Shown piece by piece: positions 1 to 6,919 of a stretch of DNA of 7,289 nucleotides (position 1 is its first letter; each line of letters starts with the position of its first letter). The notes under the pieces are model-generated. The model saw only the letters and a program-made list of their open reading frames with translations. It was not told the DNA's origin and did not search any database. The stretch is from Candidatus Eiseniibacteriota bacterium. Lineage in GTDB: Bacteria > JAFGKV01. The stretch is taken from assembly GCA_025453925.1 (NCBI GenBank), contig JALOPK010000163.1, positions 1 to 7,289 of the forward strand. The letters run 5' to 3'. The translations under genes were made by a program, and so were the position numbers.

Positions 1-357
1 AATAGATGTAAGCCAATCTCTGAAGTGTCCCTGTTCCCCAATACTCGAGTCGGATTCACCTTGGTTCGGTTGATTTCCTTCTTTTTCCTCTTGGACGTTG
101 ATCAGTGCAGCGAATGCTGGATCTTCCTTCACATTCAATTCAACACCGTCAATTGTCGGTAACGGGAGATCCCGACTCGCTCTCAACAGAATCCACTCCT
201 CGAGCACCTCCTCGAGTGTTTCCCGGCACTCCTCGAGAGTGCAGGCATTCGCATGGACTCCACGACACTCGGGGATCTCTCCGAAGAATGACCCATCGTC
301 CTCGAGGATCTCGTATCGAGCGGGGTGCATTGCTGCACGAAGATACTGAACGAGCAT
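1..357 (-). CDS. hicB: HicB-family antitoxin, 3' end cut by window edge
   Basis: The frame opens at an ATG (355-357 on the complement) and stays open for 119 codons to base 1, so the stop lies outside the window. A perfect AGGAGGT (complement of 366-372) sits 8 nt before the ATG and fixes the start. The N-terminus reads MLVQYLRAAMHPARYEILED, followed by a GSFFGEIPECRGVHANA segment, then a Leu/Glu-rich helix (TLEECRETLEEVLEEWILL, about residues 40-58) and the ending PLPTIDGVELNV near residue 76. This is the classic partial RNase-H-like fold of HicB-like antitoxins, which bind and neutralise the mRNA-cleaving toxin HicA in the cytoplasm. The usual HicB domain ends near residue 76. Here a hydrophilic tail rich in Glu, Gln and Ser continues for at least 43 residues, which is longer than most solo HicB domains. 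No HicA is visible; if present it would lie beyond the left edge. The family call is firm, but toxin-antitoxin activity is inferred. Confidence 0.86.
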   Translation of the reverse strand, partial: MLVQYLRAAMHPARYEILEDDGSFFGEIPECRGVHANACTLEECRETLEEVLEEWILLRASRDLPLPTIDGVELNVKEDPAFAALINVQEEKEGNQPNQGESDSSIGEQGHFRDWLTSI

Positions 358-387
358 AGACGCGGACCTCCTGCACGGCCCATGACT

Positions 388-400
388 GGCATCGGATGCC
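388..400. promoter_or_regulatory. 13-nt inverted repeat in the hicB leader, possible operator
   Basis: GGCATC-G-GATGCC is a perfect 6-bp inverted repeat with a single central base. It ends 31 nt upstream of the hicB start codon. Many toxin-antitoxin promoters are autoregulated through short palindromes at this distance, so it is a plausible operator. A second weak stem (CCCCG/CGGGG, 399-417) abuts it. No convincing -35/-10 pair could be placed nearby, so the assignment rests on position and symmetry alone. Confidence 0.3.
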
Positions 401-647
401 CCGTTTGATGTTCGGGGAGGCTCTCTGGCTTTCCCGTGCGGCGGAAGGCATGCAACACTCTCACAGGCAATGTACGCCACGTCGTTGGCACGAAGCAAGG
501 CGAACCACTTATCCCGTCACGTCAGCCGCGACAGGATGGACACCGTTCCCGTATGATCTGCGGGCCGCCGGAGCAGGGTGAGGATGTGCGGCCGGCACAC
601 GGGAGTTGGCAGAATGGCAGGTAGCCGGGCCGAAAGCAGGGGGTAGG

Positions 648-671
648 GACTATTCTAATGTTAGAATAGTC
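648..671. promoter_or_regulatory. 24-nt palindrome with perfect 11-bp arms
   Basis: The arms GACTATTCTAA and TTAGAATAGTC are exact reverse complements separated by only TG. This AT-rich block is embedded in very GC-rich DNA. Such a small centre and full symmetry suit a binding site for a dimeric repressor better than an RNA hairpin. Each strand also contains TAGAAT, one mismatch from a -10 box, so a factor bound here could cover a promoter in either direction. No well-placed -35 and no adjacent gene was identified. BlaI/MecI-type repressors bind symmetric sites of this general kind, but the assignment is speculative. Confidence 0.45.
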
Positions 672-840
672 GGTGCTGTCGCCCCGGCTTGGCCGGAATC
701 GCGGCACCCGTGGCCGCATCCCTCGGCGGGTGCCGTGGACTGCTGCGGTGAGCGGGAGTGGAGGATGTATGATCCGATCGTGTCCATCACAGCCCCATGG
801 TGAAGGCGTCTCTCGAGTAGGGAGTGAGGAGGGGCAGGAG

Positions 841-875
841 TCGGCAGTAGGCAATCGCCGGTCGGCAGTCCGGAC
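841..875 (+). repeat. Degenerate heptamer tandem tract (TCGGCAG-like)
   Basis: Five consecutive 7-nt units read TCGGCAG, TAGGCAA, TCGCCGG, TCGGCAG and TCCGGAC. The first and fourth are identical and exactly 21 nt apart. The preceding GGCAGGAG looks like a further, shifted unit. A diverged relative may lie on the complement near 2255-2280, close to another word repeat. Confidence 0.5.
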
Positions 876-988
876 TCACCTGTAACTACATGTCGAAGAG
901 GCTCGTGCGAAGCCCGGTCCATCAGCGGTCGTGACGGAGCCCGACCCTCCAGAGTACAGACGGAACAGCCCGCACGGCAGAGAGGGAG

Positions 989-1008
989 GGACGACCTCCG
1001 GGTCGTCC
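989..1008. repeat. Perfect 8-bp hairpin
   Basis: GGACGACC and GGTCGTCC form a perfect stem around a TCCG loop. No T-run follows on either strand, so it is not a standard terminator. It lies among other hairpins in non-coding DNA and is best regarded as a REP-like stem-loop. Confidence 0.45.
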
Positions 1009-1122
1009 GCAGGAGTTCTGCACGAGGCTCAGAAGTTACCGTAGGTATGGGCAGGGCCACGCCCGGGGCCGGAACTTGTCTGAGCGTACATATGTCATCG
1101 GGAGGTGGGAATCCACGGGGCG

Positions 1123-1173
1123 GTAGTCCCGGCGCTCTGCGCCATGCTGCCCGCCGCAGAGCGGCGTGGCTAC
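1123..1173. repeat. 51-nt imperfect inverted repeat (REP/MITE-like)
   Basis: The left arm starts GTAG and contains CGCTCTGCG. The right arm, read on the complement, also starts GTAG and contains CGCTCTGCG, with a few mismatches between the two cores. The central loop is about ATGCTGCC. The ends GTAG/CTAC give it defined boundaries, as in a small mobilised palindromic element. Confidence 0.5.
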
Positions 1174-1235
1174 AGCGGGCCGTACTCTCAACCCTGAGAA
1201 TTCTGAGGGAGCCACCCGACTTCAGAGGCCGCACT

Positions 1236-1263
1236 GAACCCCGAACCCTGAACCCTAGAACCT
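1236..1263 (+). repeat. Heptamer tandem tract (GAACCCT)
   Basis: Four contiguous 7-nt units read GAACCCC, GAACCCT, GAACCCT and AGAACCT. The middle two are identical. It resembles the short tandemly repeated heptamers described between genes in cyanobacteria, although the sequence and host here differ. Confidence 0.6.
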
Positions 1264-1297
1264 GCGAGCGGAGCGAAGCGGCGGTCGGCTGGCAAAG

Positions 1298-1325
1298 AGC
1301 TGATAGCAGAGAGCTGAGAGCTGCC
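1298..1325 (+). repeat. Heptamer tandem tract (AGCTGAG)
   Basis: Four contiguous 7-nt units read AGCTGAT, AGCAGAG, AGCTGAG and AGCTGCC. The period matches the tract that ends 35 nt upstream, but the word is unrelated. Only non-coding DNA surrounds it. Confidence 0.55.
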
Positions 1326-1410
1326 TCGCATCGGCTACGTCCCCGCTCTGCGACTTCGCCAACATTCGGCTCTCCCGACGGCCACATCGCCGCCACCTGC
1401 CGGTTCTGTC

Positions 1411-1429
1411 ACAAGTCAAGACCTGACCC
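1411..1429 (-). repeat. Short word resembling a REP-transposase element end
   Basis: The complement reads GGGTCAGGTCTTGACTTGT. A related word, GGGGTCAGGCGAATTGACC, lies on the complement at 3504-3522. From memory, words of the form GGGTCAGGTCTTGAC recur at the ends of IS200/REP-associated tyrosine transposase elements. No transposase is present, so at most this is a relic. Confidence 0.3.
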
Positions 1430-1480
1430 AAGGCAGCCCTCGAAGACCAGGCCCCGGGTTGGTCACGCCACTGGCCATCA

Positions 1481-1924
1481 TCACCGGCGGGAGCGCATCG
1501 TCCGGCGCGCAAACACCGCGACCATCGTGGCCAGCGGAATCACCAGCACCGACATGGCGCCGAACCACACACCGGTCAGCAGTACGCACATCGCGAGATT
1601 GTTCCTCCCGTCGCCGTTGTCCTGACCCAGACACAGCGGCGTGAGGTTGATCACCGCCAGGACCAGGGCTGAGAGGCACCACGAGATGCCTTCACGCGAC
1701 AGGATCCGAAACGTCGTAGGGCCTCCGCCGCTCTCTCCCCCCGCACCTCGGAACAGGGCTACCAGGGACCTGCTGTTCAGAATGGCATAGGCGGCGCCCC
1801 ACAGCAGGTAGATCCGGCCCCAGTATTCCTGAGACATTCCCAGCGCCAGAAGTGGCAGCGCGGGTACCGCGCCGATCAGAATCGCGAGACGCAAGTGAGT
1901 CTGGCGACCTTGGTCGTTCGTCAT
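1481..1924 (-). CDS. Four-helix integral membrane protein, unknown function
   Basis: This encodes a 147-aa protein not recognised as a named family. The ATG at 1924 is chosen over one further upstream (1993) because GAGGTG lies 6 nt before it. The extra 23 residues of the longer form are basic and unlike a coding start. Four hydrophobic segments lie at about residues 11-30, 37-58, 80-99 and 110-138. The N-terminus is polar, the 59-77 loop is Gly/Ser-rich with several charges, the 100-109 loop is polar (QDNGDGRNN), and the C-terminus is basic (ARRTMRSRR). This arrangement suggests both ends lie in the cytoplasm. Codon use is strongly G/C in third position, as in the large protease gene, which supports a real gene. 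No catalytic motif or binding site is apparent. It stands alone, with no co-directional partner within 500 nt upstream. Confidence 0.78.
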   Translation of the reverse strand: MTNDQGRQTHLRLAILIGAVPALPLLALGMSQEYWGRIYLLWGAAYAILNSRSLVALFRGAGGESGGGPTTFRILSREGISWCLSALVLAVINLTPLCLGQDNGDGRNNLAMCVLLTGVWFGAMSVLVIPLATMVAVFARRTMRSRR

Positions 1925-2202
1925 TTTGTTCACCTCACCCAGGACGGGTCTTCTCCCCGCCACGTTATGCTTCCTCGCCCAAGGGCTCGACATATGACAG
2001 CCGTCTCTCTATGGATCCGATCCGCCTGGGAACGGTCCGTCCGCGACGTCCAATTCCCCCTACGTCGGCAAACCGACCGAACGGAGATCGGGTGCTACCA
2101 GGCTGCCAAGGTCCTGCACTCGGAAAGGGTCGGCCACCGGCGACGTCAGACCTCGAGGACGTCTCGCGTCGAACCCGGAAGTCCCGATCGTGAGGTTGTT
2201 CG

Positions 2203-2220
2203 AAAACCGGCAGAAGCCGG
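2203..2220 (-). terminator. Weak intrinsic terminator, minus strand
   Basis: On the complement, CCGGC-TTCT-GCCGG is followed directly by TTTT. It lies about 240 nt downstream of the stop of the 42-aa membrane-protein gene, with repeats in between. The stem is only 5 bp and the T-run only 4, so the call is tentative. Confidence 0.3.
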
Positions 2221-2300
2221 AACGGGAGGATGCCGTCTGTAGTGATGAGTAATCGGTTGCCCGTCGTCGATCCTGCCTTCCACCTACCGCACTCCCCGTC

Positions 2301-2333
2301 TCGGATCTCGAGATTCGTGCTTCGAGTTTCCCG
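2301..2333 (-). repeat. Inverted third copy of the GAAGCACGAA word repeat
   Basis: Read on the complement, CGCGGGAAACTCGAAGCACG followed by AATCTCGAGATCC matches most positions of the repeat that begins at 3606. The GAA triplets are 7 nt apart, as in the direct copies. The purine-rich 8-nt-period tail of the direct copies is absent here. Confidence 0.5.
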
Positions 2334-2340
2334 CGTAGCG

Positions 2341-2357
2341 GCCGCTTCCTCAGCGGC
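2341..2357. repeat. Perfect 6-bp hairpin
   Basis: GCCGCT and AGCGGC flank a TCCTC loop. It is one of many short GC-rich stem-loops in the gaps and has no T-run on either side. Confidence 0.35.
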
Positions 2358-2457
2358 TCCGCGTCTCTGCGGGCTCCCTCGCTCCGCACTCCGCAATCGA
2401 GAGGGTGCTCACCAAGCGGGGCCGCGAGCAGCTCCGGAAAAGAGATCCAGGTCGAGC

Positions 2458-2586
2458 CTATTTGAATATGCCAAAATGCCCCAGGAGCCACCATAGAAGC
2501 AGGAAGACCACAATCGTGGAAAGGCACCCACCGCCCAACCTCCTTGCGCCATAGCCGGCCGTGATCCCTCGTAAGAGCTTGCTCAT
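2458..2586 (-). CDS. 42-aa single-pass membrane mini-protein
   Basis: A short frame runs from ATG (2584-2586 on the complement) to TAG (2458-2460). GGAGGG lies just upstream (complement of 2590-2595), giving a strong though slightly close ribosome site. The protein begins MSKLLRGITAGYGARRLGGG, then C21, then a hydrophobic stretch from about residue 23 to 41 (STIVVFLLLWWLLGHFGIF) with paired Trp at 32-33, and ends in Lys. The basic N-terminus followed by one helix predicts an inner-membrane protein with its N-terminus in the cytoplasm. A GYGARRLGGGC segment followed by a helix ending in LLGHF looks like a conserved small-protein pattern, but I cannot name a family. A hairpin precedes the ribosome site. 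It has no gene partner nearby. Function is unknown; the chance that it is real is good because the hydrophobic block, codon use and ribosome site agree. Confidence 0.66.
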   Translation of the reverse strand: MSKLLRGITAGYGARRLGGGCLSTIVVFLLLWWLLGHFGIFK

Positions 2587-2607
2587 CTTCCCTCCGCTCT
2601 GGATGAA

Positions 2608-2630
2608 ACACCTCCACCAATGGGAGGTGT
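2608..2630 (-). promoter_or_regulatory. Leader hairpin upstream of the mini-protein gene
   Basis: ACACCTCC and GGAGGTGT form a perfect 8-bp stem around a 7-nt loop. It ends 21 nt before the mini-protein start codon on the minus strand. One arm is a textbook Shine-Dalgarno sequence and the other is its complement, so in RNA the stem would hide a ribosome-binding sequence next to the one actually used. No T-run follows on the minus strand, so it does not look like a terminator of an upstream gene. Confidence 0.4.
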
Positions 2631-2946
2631 CCGCCTAATGAATGGCGTGTGAGCTACCGGGGAAAGAACGGGCTCCCGCCCGCTCGTGGGCCATCGTGCA
2701 AGGTCAGGAAGTCGAGATCATCAACATCCCTAGTGGCCCTCAGGATTCACCGGACGAATTCATGCTTCCACTCGTCAGGGCAATGATTCCACCTGCCGAG
2801 CTGCTGACTTCGCCGACGACTCCCTCCTTCGTTCCCCACTGTCAACAGCTCGACCGCTCCCCAGAGCTCCCAAGTCGCCCACCCCAAGCCTTTCGAATCA
2901 CACAATCCGATTCTGCCGAAGAACCCCCGTACGCGCTGAGTAGGGT

Positions 2947-2966
2947 CCCCCGCGCGGGGGTCTTTT
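2947..2966 (+). terminator. Orphan intrinsic terminator-like hairpin, plus strand
   Basis: CCCCC-GCGC-GGGGG is followed by TCTTTT. The stem is short but all G:C and leads straight into the T-rich tail. No supported plus-strand gene lies upstream, so it either ends an unrecognised transcript from 2640-2940 or is a repeat that merely looks like a terminator. Confidence 0.45.
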
Positions 2967-3084
2967 GGGTCTCCTCGACGCGAGATCGTCGAGATCCTGT
3001 CGACGCAGGCGTGAAGAGTCCCGGATTCGCCGGTGAGGGCGTTCTATCGGAATCCCCGCGATCTCCTCCGACAAATGGAACCCG

Positions 3085-3226
3085 GCACGCTGTGGCGTGC
3101 GCAGGCGTGCCTGCGCCTTGGATGGCGGGAGCTCAGCTCCCACAGGTGGAAGCGGCGGCACGCCGCCGCACTCCATGGAGGGGCGGAGCTCCGACTCCGC
3201 CCGTGGGCAAGGTCAGAGCCTTGCCC
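3085..3226. repeat. Array of six GC-rich hairpins in 142 nt
   Basis: Consecutive perfect stems are GCACGC/GCGTGC (3085-3100), GCGCAGG/CCTGCGC (3099-3116), GGGAG/CTCCC (3127-3141), GCGGCGG/CCGCCGC (3152-3169), GGGCGGAG/CTCCGCCC (3181-3202) and GGGCAAGG/CCTTGCCC (3205-3226). Loops are 4-6 nt. The first two stems touch and the others are separated by 2-12 nt. A CTCCATGGAG palindrome fills 3171-3180. The stems share architecture but not sequence, so this is a composite of different REP-like elements rather than tandem copies of one. Confidence 0.65.
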
Positions 3227-3503
3227 CTACAGGCCCGTATGCAGCGGGAGAGAGGGAGAGAACGGAGGCCTCGACACGCAAGAAGAGGTCCCTTTAAGAT
3301 TGGCCGAAGAAGAGCCATTCCAAAACGGCACTGACAGAATCCGGCCCCTCCTTAGTCGCGTCTTTGGGCCAGTTTCCAGTTCTTCTCACTATGTGGGGGT
3401 TGTCAGCGGATTCATATTCCACGCCTTGACCCCAAAGCGTTCCCGCGGGATGAGACTGTCTGAGAACGCTACCCATGACGGCTGGGACCCGCTACGCCGG
3501 GGT

Positions 3504-3556
3504 GGTCAATTCGCCTGACCCCGATGTGCCCTAACCTGGTCAATTCCCGTGGCCCA
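3504..3556. repeat. Two GGTCAATTC words, possible element end
   Basis: GGTCAATTCGCCTGACCCC (3504-3522) and GGTCAATTCCCGTGGCCCA (3538-3556) share their first ten bases 34 nt apart. An AGGGGTCACCTGACC variant follows at once. The complement of the first resembles the word at 1411-1429. No open reading frame for a transposase lies between or beside them. Confidence 0.35.
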
Positions 3557-3605
3557 GGGGTCACCTGACCTGGCCAACTACCATGACCCTCGACACGCAC
3601 GCGGA

Positions 3606-3664
3606 GAATCCGAAGCACGAAGCTCGAAATGGGAAGAGGGGAAGGATGGAAGACTGGAAGACTG
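3606..3664 (+). repeat. Purine-rich word repeat, copy 1
   Basis: GAA triplets recur at 3612, 3619, 3626, 3633, 3641, 3649 and 3657, so the period is 7 nt three times and then 8 nt three times. Units include GAAGCAC, GAAGCTC, GAAATGG, GAAGAGG and the octamer GAAGACTG. A run of nine G follows at 3664-3672. It is a direct repeat of 3725-3787. Confidence 0.65.
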
Positions 3665-3679
3665 GGGGGGGGCGAGGAG

Positions 3680-3725
3680 GATCGCGGCTGAAGCCGCTCC
3701 CACAGCCCGCGCCTGCTGGCGCGGG
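3680..3725. repeat. REP-like double hairpin
   Basis: GCGGC-TGAA-GCCGC (3684-3697) is followed by CTCCCACAG and then a perfect 8-bp stem CCCGCGCC-TGCT-GGCGCGGG (3706-3725). The complement, GTGGGAGCGGCTTCAGCCGC, closely resembles REP elements known from Pseudomonas and relatives. It sits exactly between the two direct word repeats. Confidence 0.6.
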
Positions 3726-3787
3726 AAATCCGAAGCTCGAAATGGGAAGAGGGGAAGAGGGGAAGGATGGAAGACTGGAAGACTGGG
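3725..3787 (+). repeat. Purine-rich word repeat, copy 2
   Basis: GAA triplets recur at 3725, 3732, 3739, 3746, 3754, 3762, 3770 and 3778: 7-nt steps three times, then 8-nt steps four times. Compared with copy 1 it lacks one heptamer unit near its start and has gained one octamer unit (AAGAGGGG) in the middle. Such unit-sized gains and losses are typical of slippage. Confidence 0.65.
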
Positions 3788-4129
3788 CGGGAGAGGGCGG
3801 AGCGCAGAGTGGGGAGGCGCGGAGACGCAGGGAGACGAATCGATCCGGTGGCCGGTGAGTCTCCGCAGATGGCGTACGGCGGGATGCCCTCGCGGTGAGA
3901 CAGGCGAATGCCCTCAGGCGGCATTCCCGGACCCAGCCCTCGAGGCCGATATCAAGGCCGGATCCTGACGCCAGTCGGCGCCGCGCCCGGGCGTGACCGT
4001 CGTCGGACGAGACTGTCCGCCAGTGGACATGCCGTACACGCGGACGCCTGCATTCGGATGGATCGCATGCGGCCGCACTCCTCGCCACCCCACGGCGGAG
4101 GAGGAGCATGCGGCGAGCGCCGACGGTCC

Positions 4130-4158
4130 TTGACCATCCGGCACGACCGTTGCATGAT
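4130..4158 (+). promoter_or_regulatory. Sigma-70-like promoter for the M16 protease gene
   Basis: TTGACC (4130-4135, five of six to consensus) is followed by exactly 17 nt and CATGAT (4153-4158, four of six). Transcription would start near 4165, giving a leader of about 125 nt before the protease ATG. No terminator or other start lies between. Confidence 0.5.
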
Positions 4159-4291
4159 CGGAGAAATGCTTCGCCTCTCGAGCGGCCCGGGATGAGCCGA
4201 GTCGTGTCGGATAGGCATGCTGAGTCCGGAGTCACGGCCACCCCATTCGATTCACCTGCGCCTGTCCGGCGCACCTCCGAGGGAGACATTC

Positions 4292-6919
4292 ATGAAGCGC
4301 GCTTTGCCCCTGTTCGTAGCCGTCCTCGTGTCCACCGCGGCGTTTGCGGCGGAGGGGCCCCACGACAGGGGCATCAGCGTGTCGACCCTTGCCAACGGAC
4401 TCACCGTGGCGGTGAAGGAGTACCACGCGGTGCCCGGCGTAAGCGTGCGCGTCTACCTCAAGGTAGGAAGCGCCCTGGAGGAGGAGTTCTTAGGGTATGG
4501 CGTCAGCCACTACTGCGAGCACCTCGTCGCGGGCTGCAGCACGACCAAACGGACTGAAGACGAACTGGATCGCACCATCCAGCTCATCGGCGCGCAGGAG
4601 AACGCCTACACAACCGCCGATCACACCTGCTATCATTCCTACTGCGCCGCCGAGCACTGGAAGACCGCGCTCGAGATCCTCGCGGAACATGTCATGCATT
4701 GCGCCATGTCCCCCGCTGAGCTGGAGCGGGAGAAGGGAGTCATCACCCGGGAGATCAACATGGGTGACGACGAGCCCTTCCGTGTCATATACAAACTCCT
4801 GATGAGCACGGTGTTCCCCAACTCGCCCCTCGGGGTACCCACCATCGGGTTCCGCGACAATTTCGTGAGCCTGACGCCCGATCAGGTCGTGGGGTTCTAC
4901 CGCAGACACTACGTGCCCAACAATACGATCGTCGTGATCGTGGGCGACATCAAGACGGACGATGTCCTCGCCACGGTGGAAGACATGATGGGTGGGTGGC
5001 CCCGCGGGTCACTCTACAAGGCGGTGCTCCCCGAGGAGCCCCCGCAGATCTCGATGCGCAAGCGGAGCGAGGAGCTCCCCGGCGACGTCGGCTATCTGCG
5101 GGTCGCGTGGCCGGGCGCCCGGCTCACCGACCCCGACCTCTATGCGCTGGACATGCTGGCCGCAGTCCTCGGACACGGCGCCAGCTCGAGGCTCGGCAAG
5201 GCGCTCAAGGAAGACCGGCAACTGGTCTACGATATCAGCGCTTACTCCCACACGCCCGCCATCGCGCCAGGCCCCTTTGCCGTCACCGCCATGGTTCCCG
5301 CGGACAAGGTGAATGAGGCGGCCGCGGGCATTCTCGAACAGATCGAACTGATCAAGGAGCGCCTCGCATCCCCCGAGGAGCTGGCACGCGCGAAGAACCA
5401 GGTGATCGCCGACTACAGCTTCAGCCAGCAGTCCTGCGAGGACATGGCCGCCACCATCGGGGGCGATCTCCTCCGAACCGGCGACCCGACCTTCTCTGCG
5501 CAGTACACCGAACGCATGGCCTCGGTCACCGCGGAAGAAATCCGCGACATGGCGCGGCGGTATCTTCCACCCCATCGCGCGAGCATCGTGTGCCTCGGGG
5601 GAGAACCCCTGGAATCTCCCGCGTCAGAGAAGGCCTCCGCCGCCGGCGGACTTCCGGTGACGGGCTTCACCCTGGCGAACGGACTGACGGTAGTCACCCG
5701 CGCGAATCCCGGCGTGGACGTCGTCTCGATCCAGGCGCTGTTCAAGGGGGGAAATCGCCACGAGACTGAGGAGACCAACGGCCTCTTCACCATTCTCTCC
5801 CAGCTCTTGACCAAAGGGACGAAGCGCCATACCGCCGCCCAGATCGTCGAACTGGTAGAGGCGAGGGGCGGAAGCATCGAGAGCGGCAGTGGCAAAGAGA
5901 CCTTCTGGGTTCGCCTCAACGTGCTGGCCAAGGATCTCGACTTCGGGATGGAGCTTCTCGGCGAGCTCCTCACGCAGTCCACCTTCCCGGAGGACGAGCT
6001 GGAGAAGCAGAAGAAGGACGCGCTCGCCCGCCTTCAGAATCAGGAGAATGACTGGCAGTCCGAGGCTATCACCTTCTTCCTGGCGACCTGCTTCGCTGAT
6101 CATCCCTACCATCTCAACGGGATCGGGAGCACGGAGGCCATCTCCGCCACGACCCGGGACGCGGTGGTGGCCGCTCATCGCGCGTACACACGCGCCGGTT
6201 CCGCGGTGGTAGCCGTGTGTGGCGGTGTCGCCGCGGCCGACGTCGAGAGAGCCGCCGGCCGTTTCCTCCGCGACCTGCCGGCGGGCTCGTGTCCGGACCC
6301 CGTTTCGGTCTCTCTGCCCCGGCGTACCGGCGTGGAGCGCGCGACCAAGGTCAACGACAAGGGCCAAGTCACGATCTGTATGGGCTACCCCGGCCCGAGC
6401 TTCGGTCACGGGGATGAGTACCCGATCCGGCTCATGGACGCGATCACTTCCGGCATCAACCTGCCCCAGGGTTGGTTGCAGGATGCCCTGCGCGGCCGCA
6501 ACGATCTCGTGTACTTCGTCCACCTCATGCCGATCCTCTACCAGGAGGCCGGTGTGGTGGTCATTCTGACACAGTGTCAGCCAGACCTGGTGGATACGGT
6601 GATGACCCTACTGGCGGGTGAGATGCAACGGGCCCGGGCGGGCGAGTTCACCGAGGAGGACATCGAGGCCGCCAAAGGCGAGTACATTACCGCGGTGGAC
6701 AACGACACCCAGACCTCCGCGGTTCAGGCCCACCGCCTGGCGAGCTACGAATTGCTGGGTGTGGGGCGGGATGCCGCCTTCTCGTTCGCGGACAGGGTGA
6801 GAAGCGTGAAGGTGTCGGACGTCCAGCGCGTGTCGGCGGAGTACCTCACCGGGAGCGTGGTGACTCTGGCCGGGCCCCTGGCGGAGGAGAGCTCTCCGGC
6901 GGTGGGCGATCAGCCCTGA
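4292..6919 (+). CDS. Exported tandem M16 zinc metallopeptidase
   Basis: This encodes an 875-aa insulinase/pitrilysin-type (M16) protease, likely periplasmic or extracytoplasmic. The ATG at 4292 is chosen over one 75 nt upstream because GGGAG lies 6 nt before it and it exposes a signal peptide, MKRALPLFVAVLVSTAAFAA, cleaved near AFA-A. The inverted zinc motif HYCEH lies at residues 73-77 (ligands H73 and H77, base E76). The third ligand is E154 in TREINM, 77 residues after H77 as in pitrilysin; E147 is the conserved acidic neighbour. LTPDQVVGFYRRHYVPN (194-210) opens the first M16_C domain. A second LANGLTV (461-467) starts the repeat half, where TILSQ (500-504) replaces HxxEH, so that half is non-catalytic and helps form the closed chamber. 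Length and order resemble PqqL-like fused proteases. It probably degrades peptides; the substrate is unknown. It appears monocistronic. Confidence 0.96.
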   Translation: MKRALPLFVAVLVSTAAFAAEGPHDRGISVSTLANGLTVAVKEYHAVPGVSVRVYLKVGSALEEEFLGYGVSHYCEHLVAGCSTTKRTEDELDRTIQLIGAQENAYTTADHTCYHSYCAAEHWKTALEILAEHVMHCAMSPAELEREKGVITREINMGDDEPFRVIYKLLMSTVFPNSPLGVPTIGFRDNFVSLTPDQVVGFYRRHYVPNNTIVVIVGDIKTDDVLATVEDMMGGWPRGSLYKAVLPEEPPQISMRKRSEELPGDVGYLRVAWPGARLTDPDLYALDMLAAVLGHGASSRLGKALKEDRQLVYDISAYSHTPAIAPGPFAVTAMVPADKVNEAAAGILEQIELIKERLASPEELARAKNQVIADYSFSQQSCEDMAATIGGDLLRTGDPTFSAQYTERMASVTAEEIRDMARRYLPPHRASIVCLGGEPLESPASEKASAAGGLPVTGFTLANGLTVVTRANPGVDVVSIQALFKGGNRHETEETNGLFTILSQLLTKGTKRHTAAQIVELVEARGGSIESGSGKETFWVRLNVLAKDLDFGMELLGELLTQSTFPEDELEKQKKDALARLQNQENDWQSEAITFFLATCFADHPYHLNGIGSTEAISATTRDAVVAAHRAYTRAGSAVVAVCGGVAAADVERAAGRFLRDLPAGSCPDPVSVSLPRRTGVERATKVNDKGQVTICMGYPGPSFGHGDEYPIRLMDAITSGINLPQGWLQDALRGRNDLVYFVHLMPILYQEAGVVVILTQCQPDLVDTVMTLLAGEMQRARAGEFTEEDIEAAKGEYITAVDNDTQTSAVQAHRLASYELLGVGRDAAFSFADRVRSVKVSDVQRVSAEYLTGSVVTLAGPLAEESSPAVGDQP

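Follow-up and report, generated by a model that had tools for sequence, protein, structure and literature searches.

Why should unrelated words in one stretch of intergenic bacterial DNA repeat with the same period? The question is raised by a 7,289-nt contig, here called the window (contig C174 of genome G000), from a Candidatus Eiseniibacteriota MAG of 3.9 Mb (82% complete, 502 contigs). The first-pass annotation had read several tandem tracts in it as all repeating at 7 nt, treated them as independent, and suggested one generating process as their source, such as templated slippage by a particular polymerase or a terminal-transferase-like activity. For comparison we used a relative from the same genus (G001) and one from the same family (G002), together with more distant genomes. 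The 7-letter tandem repeats hold up, and chance does not account for the period they share. Our preferred explanation, which we hold to be somewhat probable, is that the arrays change by slippage of whole units with a preferred step of 7 (to 8) nt and spread by the copying of REP-like elements.

According to a home-made codon-usage caller, positions ~1–4216 of the window are mostly intergenic, with a lone small gene (1481–1993, minus strand) before an M16 peptidase gene at 4217–6919. The intergenic DNA upstream of M16 is not conserved in the relatives, where no orthologous tracts were found, and a search of the M16 protein against the genome contigs returned distant relatives only. Rfam gave no match to the window. 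An intrinsic-terminator-like hairpin, CCCCCGCGCGGGGGTCTTTT, can be recognized by eye in the intergenic DNA at 2925–2966. The tandem tracts are as follows.

839–875, no strand assigned: degenerate TCGGCAG heptamer tract, to the left of a dispersed element.
1236–1263, plus strand: GAACCCT heptamer tail of that element (TRF score 42, lag-7 score 11).
1298–1325, plus strand: AGCTGAG heptamer array inside a second module (TRF score 42, lag-7 score 10).
3607–3667, plus strand: first copy of a compound unit, two GAAGC(A/T)C heptamers and then an 8-nt array of the GGAAGACT type.
3728–3787, plus strand: second copy of the compound unit, differing from the first in one heptamer and one octamer as read from the sequence.

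GAACCCT and AGCTGAG indeed repeat at 7 nt. TCGGCAG at 841–875 is weak: no more than two of its five degenerate units are exact, and its lag-7 score of 5 is not significant alone. GAAGCAC/GAAGCTC at 3606–3639 and 3725–3745 comprises merely 2–3 heptamers (lag-7 score 8 in the first tract, none in the second) joined to octamers. The 8-nt arrays beside these heptamers are themselves significant (3640–3665, score 12; 3744–3786, score 20), and TRF placed period-7 arrays at 1234–1262 and 1296–1323 and period-8 arrays at 3632–3665 and 3744–3786. The listed tracts therefore do not all share a period of 7; the GAAGCWC heptamers run on into an 8-nt array, which makes 8 a second period, one that the earlier reading had missed. 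Scanning the intergenic part against 300 dinucleotide shuffles gave two arrays with a score of at least 10 at period 7 and two at period 8, where ~0.00–0.01 were expected, and no strong arrays at periods 5, 6, 9, 10 or 11. A perfect 8-nt array in the style of the window's AATCCGAAGC tract, AATCCCGA in four copies, occurs in the unrelated genome G054 (L234, 17886–17918).

A 382-kb sample of G000, which includes the window and three contigs picked for carrying the repeat, contained 10 lag-7 arrays compared with 0–4 in five shuffles, 8 lag-14 arrays (a harmonic of 7) compared with 0–1, and 4 lag-8 arrays compared with 0–1. With those four contigs removed, exact-match runs of at least 11 gave 4 against 0.4 at period 7, 4 against 0.4 at period 14 and 0 against 0 at period 8. 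The excess anticipated by the first-pass annotation is thus present at 7 in the genome sample, but at 8 it is thin outside the window. The 96 kb of G002 held 18 lag-7 arrays (0–1 when shuffled). Harmonics aside, the noncoding DNA of G000 and G002 is enriched mainly in period 7 (9 and 18 arrays) and far more weakly in period 8 (3 and 3). The home-made gene caller assigned 86% of the G000 sample to coding sequence, yet it placed 9 of the 10 period-7 arrays of G000, and 18 of 18 in G002, in noncoding DNA. Exceeding shuffles at 7 nt and lying mainly between genes, the G000 arrays behave as heptanucleotide SSRs.

Some of the window's weaker tracts have counterparts elsewhere in G000. TCGGCAG or near variants form good arrays at L122 (C323, score 14), L125 (C276, score 11) and L062, and a better copy of the word is found at C235; the compound region has ~40 short matches. 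At L062 11270–11450 (C220), TCAGTGG, GTTCGAY and 8-nt CGTCCAAT arrays share a short stretch between genes, directly ahead of an ORF.

Outside these relatives the habit was patchy. Sampling 20 kb from each of 20 phyla (400 kb) revealed no 7-nt excess, the clearest excesses being at multiples of 3, as codons predict. The habit therefore belongs to particular lineages, being strong in some and undetectable in most, and a general polymerase property is insufficient to account for it. A pattern search of 290 genomes found GAACNNT arrays in 26, scattered across the domain, against ~8 for the reversed control word, which indicates some word bias. Close to these arrays, and with words containing GAAC or GTTC removed, arrays of other words numbered 33 at period 7 (0.3 in shuffles), 29 at period 14 (harmonic), 8 at period 8 and 0–3 at each other period between 4 and 15; 22 of the 33 come from one genome, G246, and the remaining 11 from ~9 genomes. 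The claim that unrelated words share one non-random period is thus upheld in G000, in G002 and in the neighbourhood of GAACNNT arrays. In G246, a single-contig genome, a copied element holds GAACYGT, AATCACN and TTTGGAY arrays together: about ten copies (L202–L211) carry GTCATTGCGA...GAAGCAATC followed by the three arrays. This element resembles the CGTC-tagged palindromes of PMC3733652.

The tracts on the left of the window likewise lie in or beside copied DNA, and a further set of features describes it.

875–1262, plus strand: dispersed intergenic element of ~390 nt with the heptamer tail at its end; full and partial copies in G000.
1119–1176, no strand assigned: REP-like GTAG...CTAC palindrome inside the element, also found alone elsewhere, with both-strand matches at the same places.
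1203–1225, plus strand: imperfect hairpin just 5′ of the heptamer tail, with compensatory changes between copies.
1264–1348, plus strand: second dispersed module, consisting of GCGAGCGGAGCGAAGCGGC, TCGGCTG units and an AGAGCTG array.
3120–3236, no strand assigned: REP-like chain of GC-rich hairpins, the last of which, on the minus strand, begins GTAGGGGCAAGG.

Positions 875–1250/1262 match C233 (88%), C95, C240, C455, C338, C280, C235, C109, C440, C193 and shorter places in G000, and shortened copies of the element exist. The element end (1180–1262) has at least 42 matches in G001, where 40 of 196 first-look candidates were scored, and 38 in G002 (118 candidates); about one-third are element ends, and most of the others are GAACCCT arrays by themselves. 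Copies of the second module occur on C235 and C109 and at L243, L245 and L250 of G001. Several of the tracts are therefore not the independent events that they had been taken for: 841–1325 is a composite of dispersed modules and 3607–3787 is one compound unit present twice.

Aligned copies of the element end follow a fixed order of GTACTCTCAACCCTGA, the imperfect hairpin, GAGGCCGCACT and (GAACCCT)n, after which comes unique DNA or the second module. The hairpin reads CTGAGGGAGCCC...CCTCAG in G000 and G001, CTGATGGCGCGGCGCCATCAG in G002 and CTGGGTGC...GCACCCAG in one G000 copy. Across 22 copies, 82.4% of cells were paired, as against 30–51% when the pairing was slid, and 12 two-sided changes were counted compared with 3.8 in shuffles (0/500), a figure that kinship of the copies can inflate. 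A hairpin in front of the array was also considered as a general rule across phyla and was dropped, as no such hairpin regularly stands ahead of the heptamer arrays in other genomes.

G000, G001 and G002 all carry the element end together with its GAACCCT tail. Could the arrays then be a product of chance or of MAG assembly? The fragmentation of G000 into 502 contigs, the degeneracy of several tracts and the frequency with which G001 contigs begin beside the element would fit such an origin. We nevertheless regard it as extremely unlikely given the shuffle controls, the recurrence of the tail in three separate assemblies and the similar arrays of single-contig G246.

In nine of nine two-anchor copies (a comparison of paralogous copies), the tail measured 14, 21 or 28 nt from the element end to a GCGAGCG (or variant) anchor, so that it varies by whole units only. 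No such rule was found for the array of the second module, for which two two-anchor copies gave 40 and 43 nt. The whole-unit steps of the tail fit templated slippage in its ordinary sense, to which extent the earlier proposal stands; the slippage itself is inferred. The simplest cause of a change in unit number by whole steps of 7 nt, sometimes 8 nt, would be slipping of strands, or their unequal pairing, while DNA is replicated or repaired. In contrast, untemplated addition by a terminal-transferase-like activity would not make a single word recur across dozens of loci and across sister species.

Loops longer than ~4 nt escape MutS repair, and such an escape may be one reason for the step of 7. 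Another candidate is a 7-nt polymerase contact, proposed by Mrazek et al. 2007 as cited in PMC4679880 and PMC4692102; by itself, this contact leaves the strong differences between lineages unexplained. Weighing against slippage combined with element copying is G001, whose sampled 132 kb contained zero lag-7 arrays even though the genome carries the element; it has GAACCCT arrays outside that sample.

Copying of the element would account for the number of arrays: lying inside or at the end of palindrome-rich intergenic elements of REP type, they would multiply around the genome because the elements do. The palindrome at 1119–1176 is short, tagged (GTAG at 1123, CTAC at 1170) and present in many copies, as REP sequences are; its fold energy is −21.5 kcal/mol, but the z-score is only −1.4. 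The hairpin chain at 3120–3236 folds as DNA with −38 kcal/mol (z −4.3), a value that none of 200 shuffles reached. A near-perfect inverted repeat at 648–672, GACTATTCTAA-TGTTAGAATAGTC (fold z −7.5), is matched on both strands at L152 9882–9905 of G001 and in L125, and is another dispersed palindrome. With the REP/BIME and RAYT systems (PMC3733652, PMC2817692) the G000 element shares GTAG-tagged palindromes, intergenic position, many copies and a RAYT-like gene adjoining copies. It differs in its length of ~390 nt and its heptamer tail, and its mobility and its recognition by a RAYT are putative.

RAYT-like HUH transposases are the presumed movers. G000 has three Y1 transposase loci in one search and two in another. 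The locus on C235 has a copy of the tail module on either side, and among NCBIfam models its protein scores best with NF047646, REP-associated tyrosine transposase, although at 60 bits it stays below the cut-off of 80. On the same contig (L050), 441–974 and 1291–2328 hold a small antitoxin/PIN-toxin-like pair, recognized by eye (MRTTLDLPEDLVREAM / MKVLVDSSVWVAYFRG), and the RAYT-like transposase, which is extended at its C terminus; both the pair and the transposase gene fall between the contig's two heptamer-module copies. Among the 290 genomes, Y1 was present in 23 of the 26 with GAACNNT arrays and in 146 of the 264 others (P=0.0007, kinship ignored; presence in the 26 tallied by hand from listings). 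The integrase domain rve, an unrelated comparison tallied in the same way, gave 16 of 26 and 126 of 264 (P=0.22). One array-bearing genome, G096, had no Y1 match.

Might the transposition reaction itself build the heptamer tail, each insertion adding or trimming tandem units? The tail stands exactly at the element end, behind a covarying hairpin, with a variable unit number and then unique DNA, and shortened copies of the element exist. The eukaryotic parallel would be LINE/SINE elements, which carry 3′ microsatellite tails whose tandem units are added or trimmed by target-primed synthesis. These too have a stem-loop followed by a short tandem tail in which the number of units varies, and shortened copies, but the comparison is an analogy only: the G000 element is bacterial, a reverse transcriptase was not found with RVT_1 and there is no sign of an RNA intermediate. 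Because the heptamer arrays of other genomes do not regularly follow a hairpin, and because no HUH or RAYT reaction is known to make tandem tails, we consider this origin unlikely. Rather unlikely, too, is its fuller form, a non-autonomous bacterial element family whose hairpin and heptamer tail are re-made at each transposition with a built-in step of 7 nt. If true, the re-made tail would be a DNA-based counterpart of LINE/SINE tails, seeding unrelated heptamer words across phyla.

RNA-templated synthesis by a telomerase-like or DRT reverse transcriptase is attractive in that enzymes of this kind produce tandem repeats with a set period, DRT10 being one example (PMC12632851). The special polymerase of the first-pass annotation is not supported, and we rejected a reverse-transcriptase origin of the arrays as very unlikely: the Pfam domain RVT_1, which may miss UG-type enzymes and for G000 was sought in an 82% complete MAG, was missing from 7 of the 10 array genomes tested (G000, G002, G246, G110, G096, G056 and G067), and several unrelated words per genome would require many templates. 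Selection for sites spaced every 7 nt, contacted by a protein or RNA, could maintain the period whatever the word, and the intergenic location of the arrays and the clustering of different words at the same spacing suit it; cold-shock proteins have been suggested to contact TAACTGA repeats (PMC4679880). Such selection is decidedly unlikely in view of how widely the words differ, how arrays come and go between relatives, and how many belong to copied elements instead of keeping a set position with respect to genes. Slippage of whole units within copied elements remains the reading that we prefer.

An intergenic heptamer excess in bacteria was already known (PMC4679880 and PMC4692102, both citing Mrazek 2007), and a 2025 survey found units of 6–9 nt enriched in prokaryotic phyla (PMC12699852). 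The prokaryotic heptanucleotide SSRs treated in PMC4679880 and PMC4692102 (GGGAATC in Xanthomonas, GGGGAYT in Nostoc, TAACTGA in Beggiatoaceae) resemble those of G000 in being intergenic, lineage-specific, present in few to many copies and built of degenerate units, whereas G000 has several unrelated words together, arrays in or at the end of a hairpin element, and an additional 8-nt class. A literature search on the literal repeat words returned only unrelated matches among those listed. Neither the tail anatomy, a hairpin and heptamer tail ending a high-copy element, nor the clustering of heptamer words was found described in a limited search, with subscription papers mostly outside it.

The arrays of this bacterial family are a lineage-specific form of this long-known heptamer excess. 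A 7-nt repeat excess has been reported in bacteria for years, and in G000 such repeats can be linked to a dispersed element that is countable and has fixed anchors. The results indicate a habit of particular lineages rather than a universal one, which argues against a polymerase footprint as the sole cause. RAYT/Y1 transposases are a candidate co-occurring gene family, and the contrast between the array-rich sample of G002 and the array-poor sample of G001 makes the question testable.
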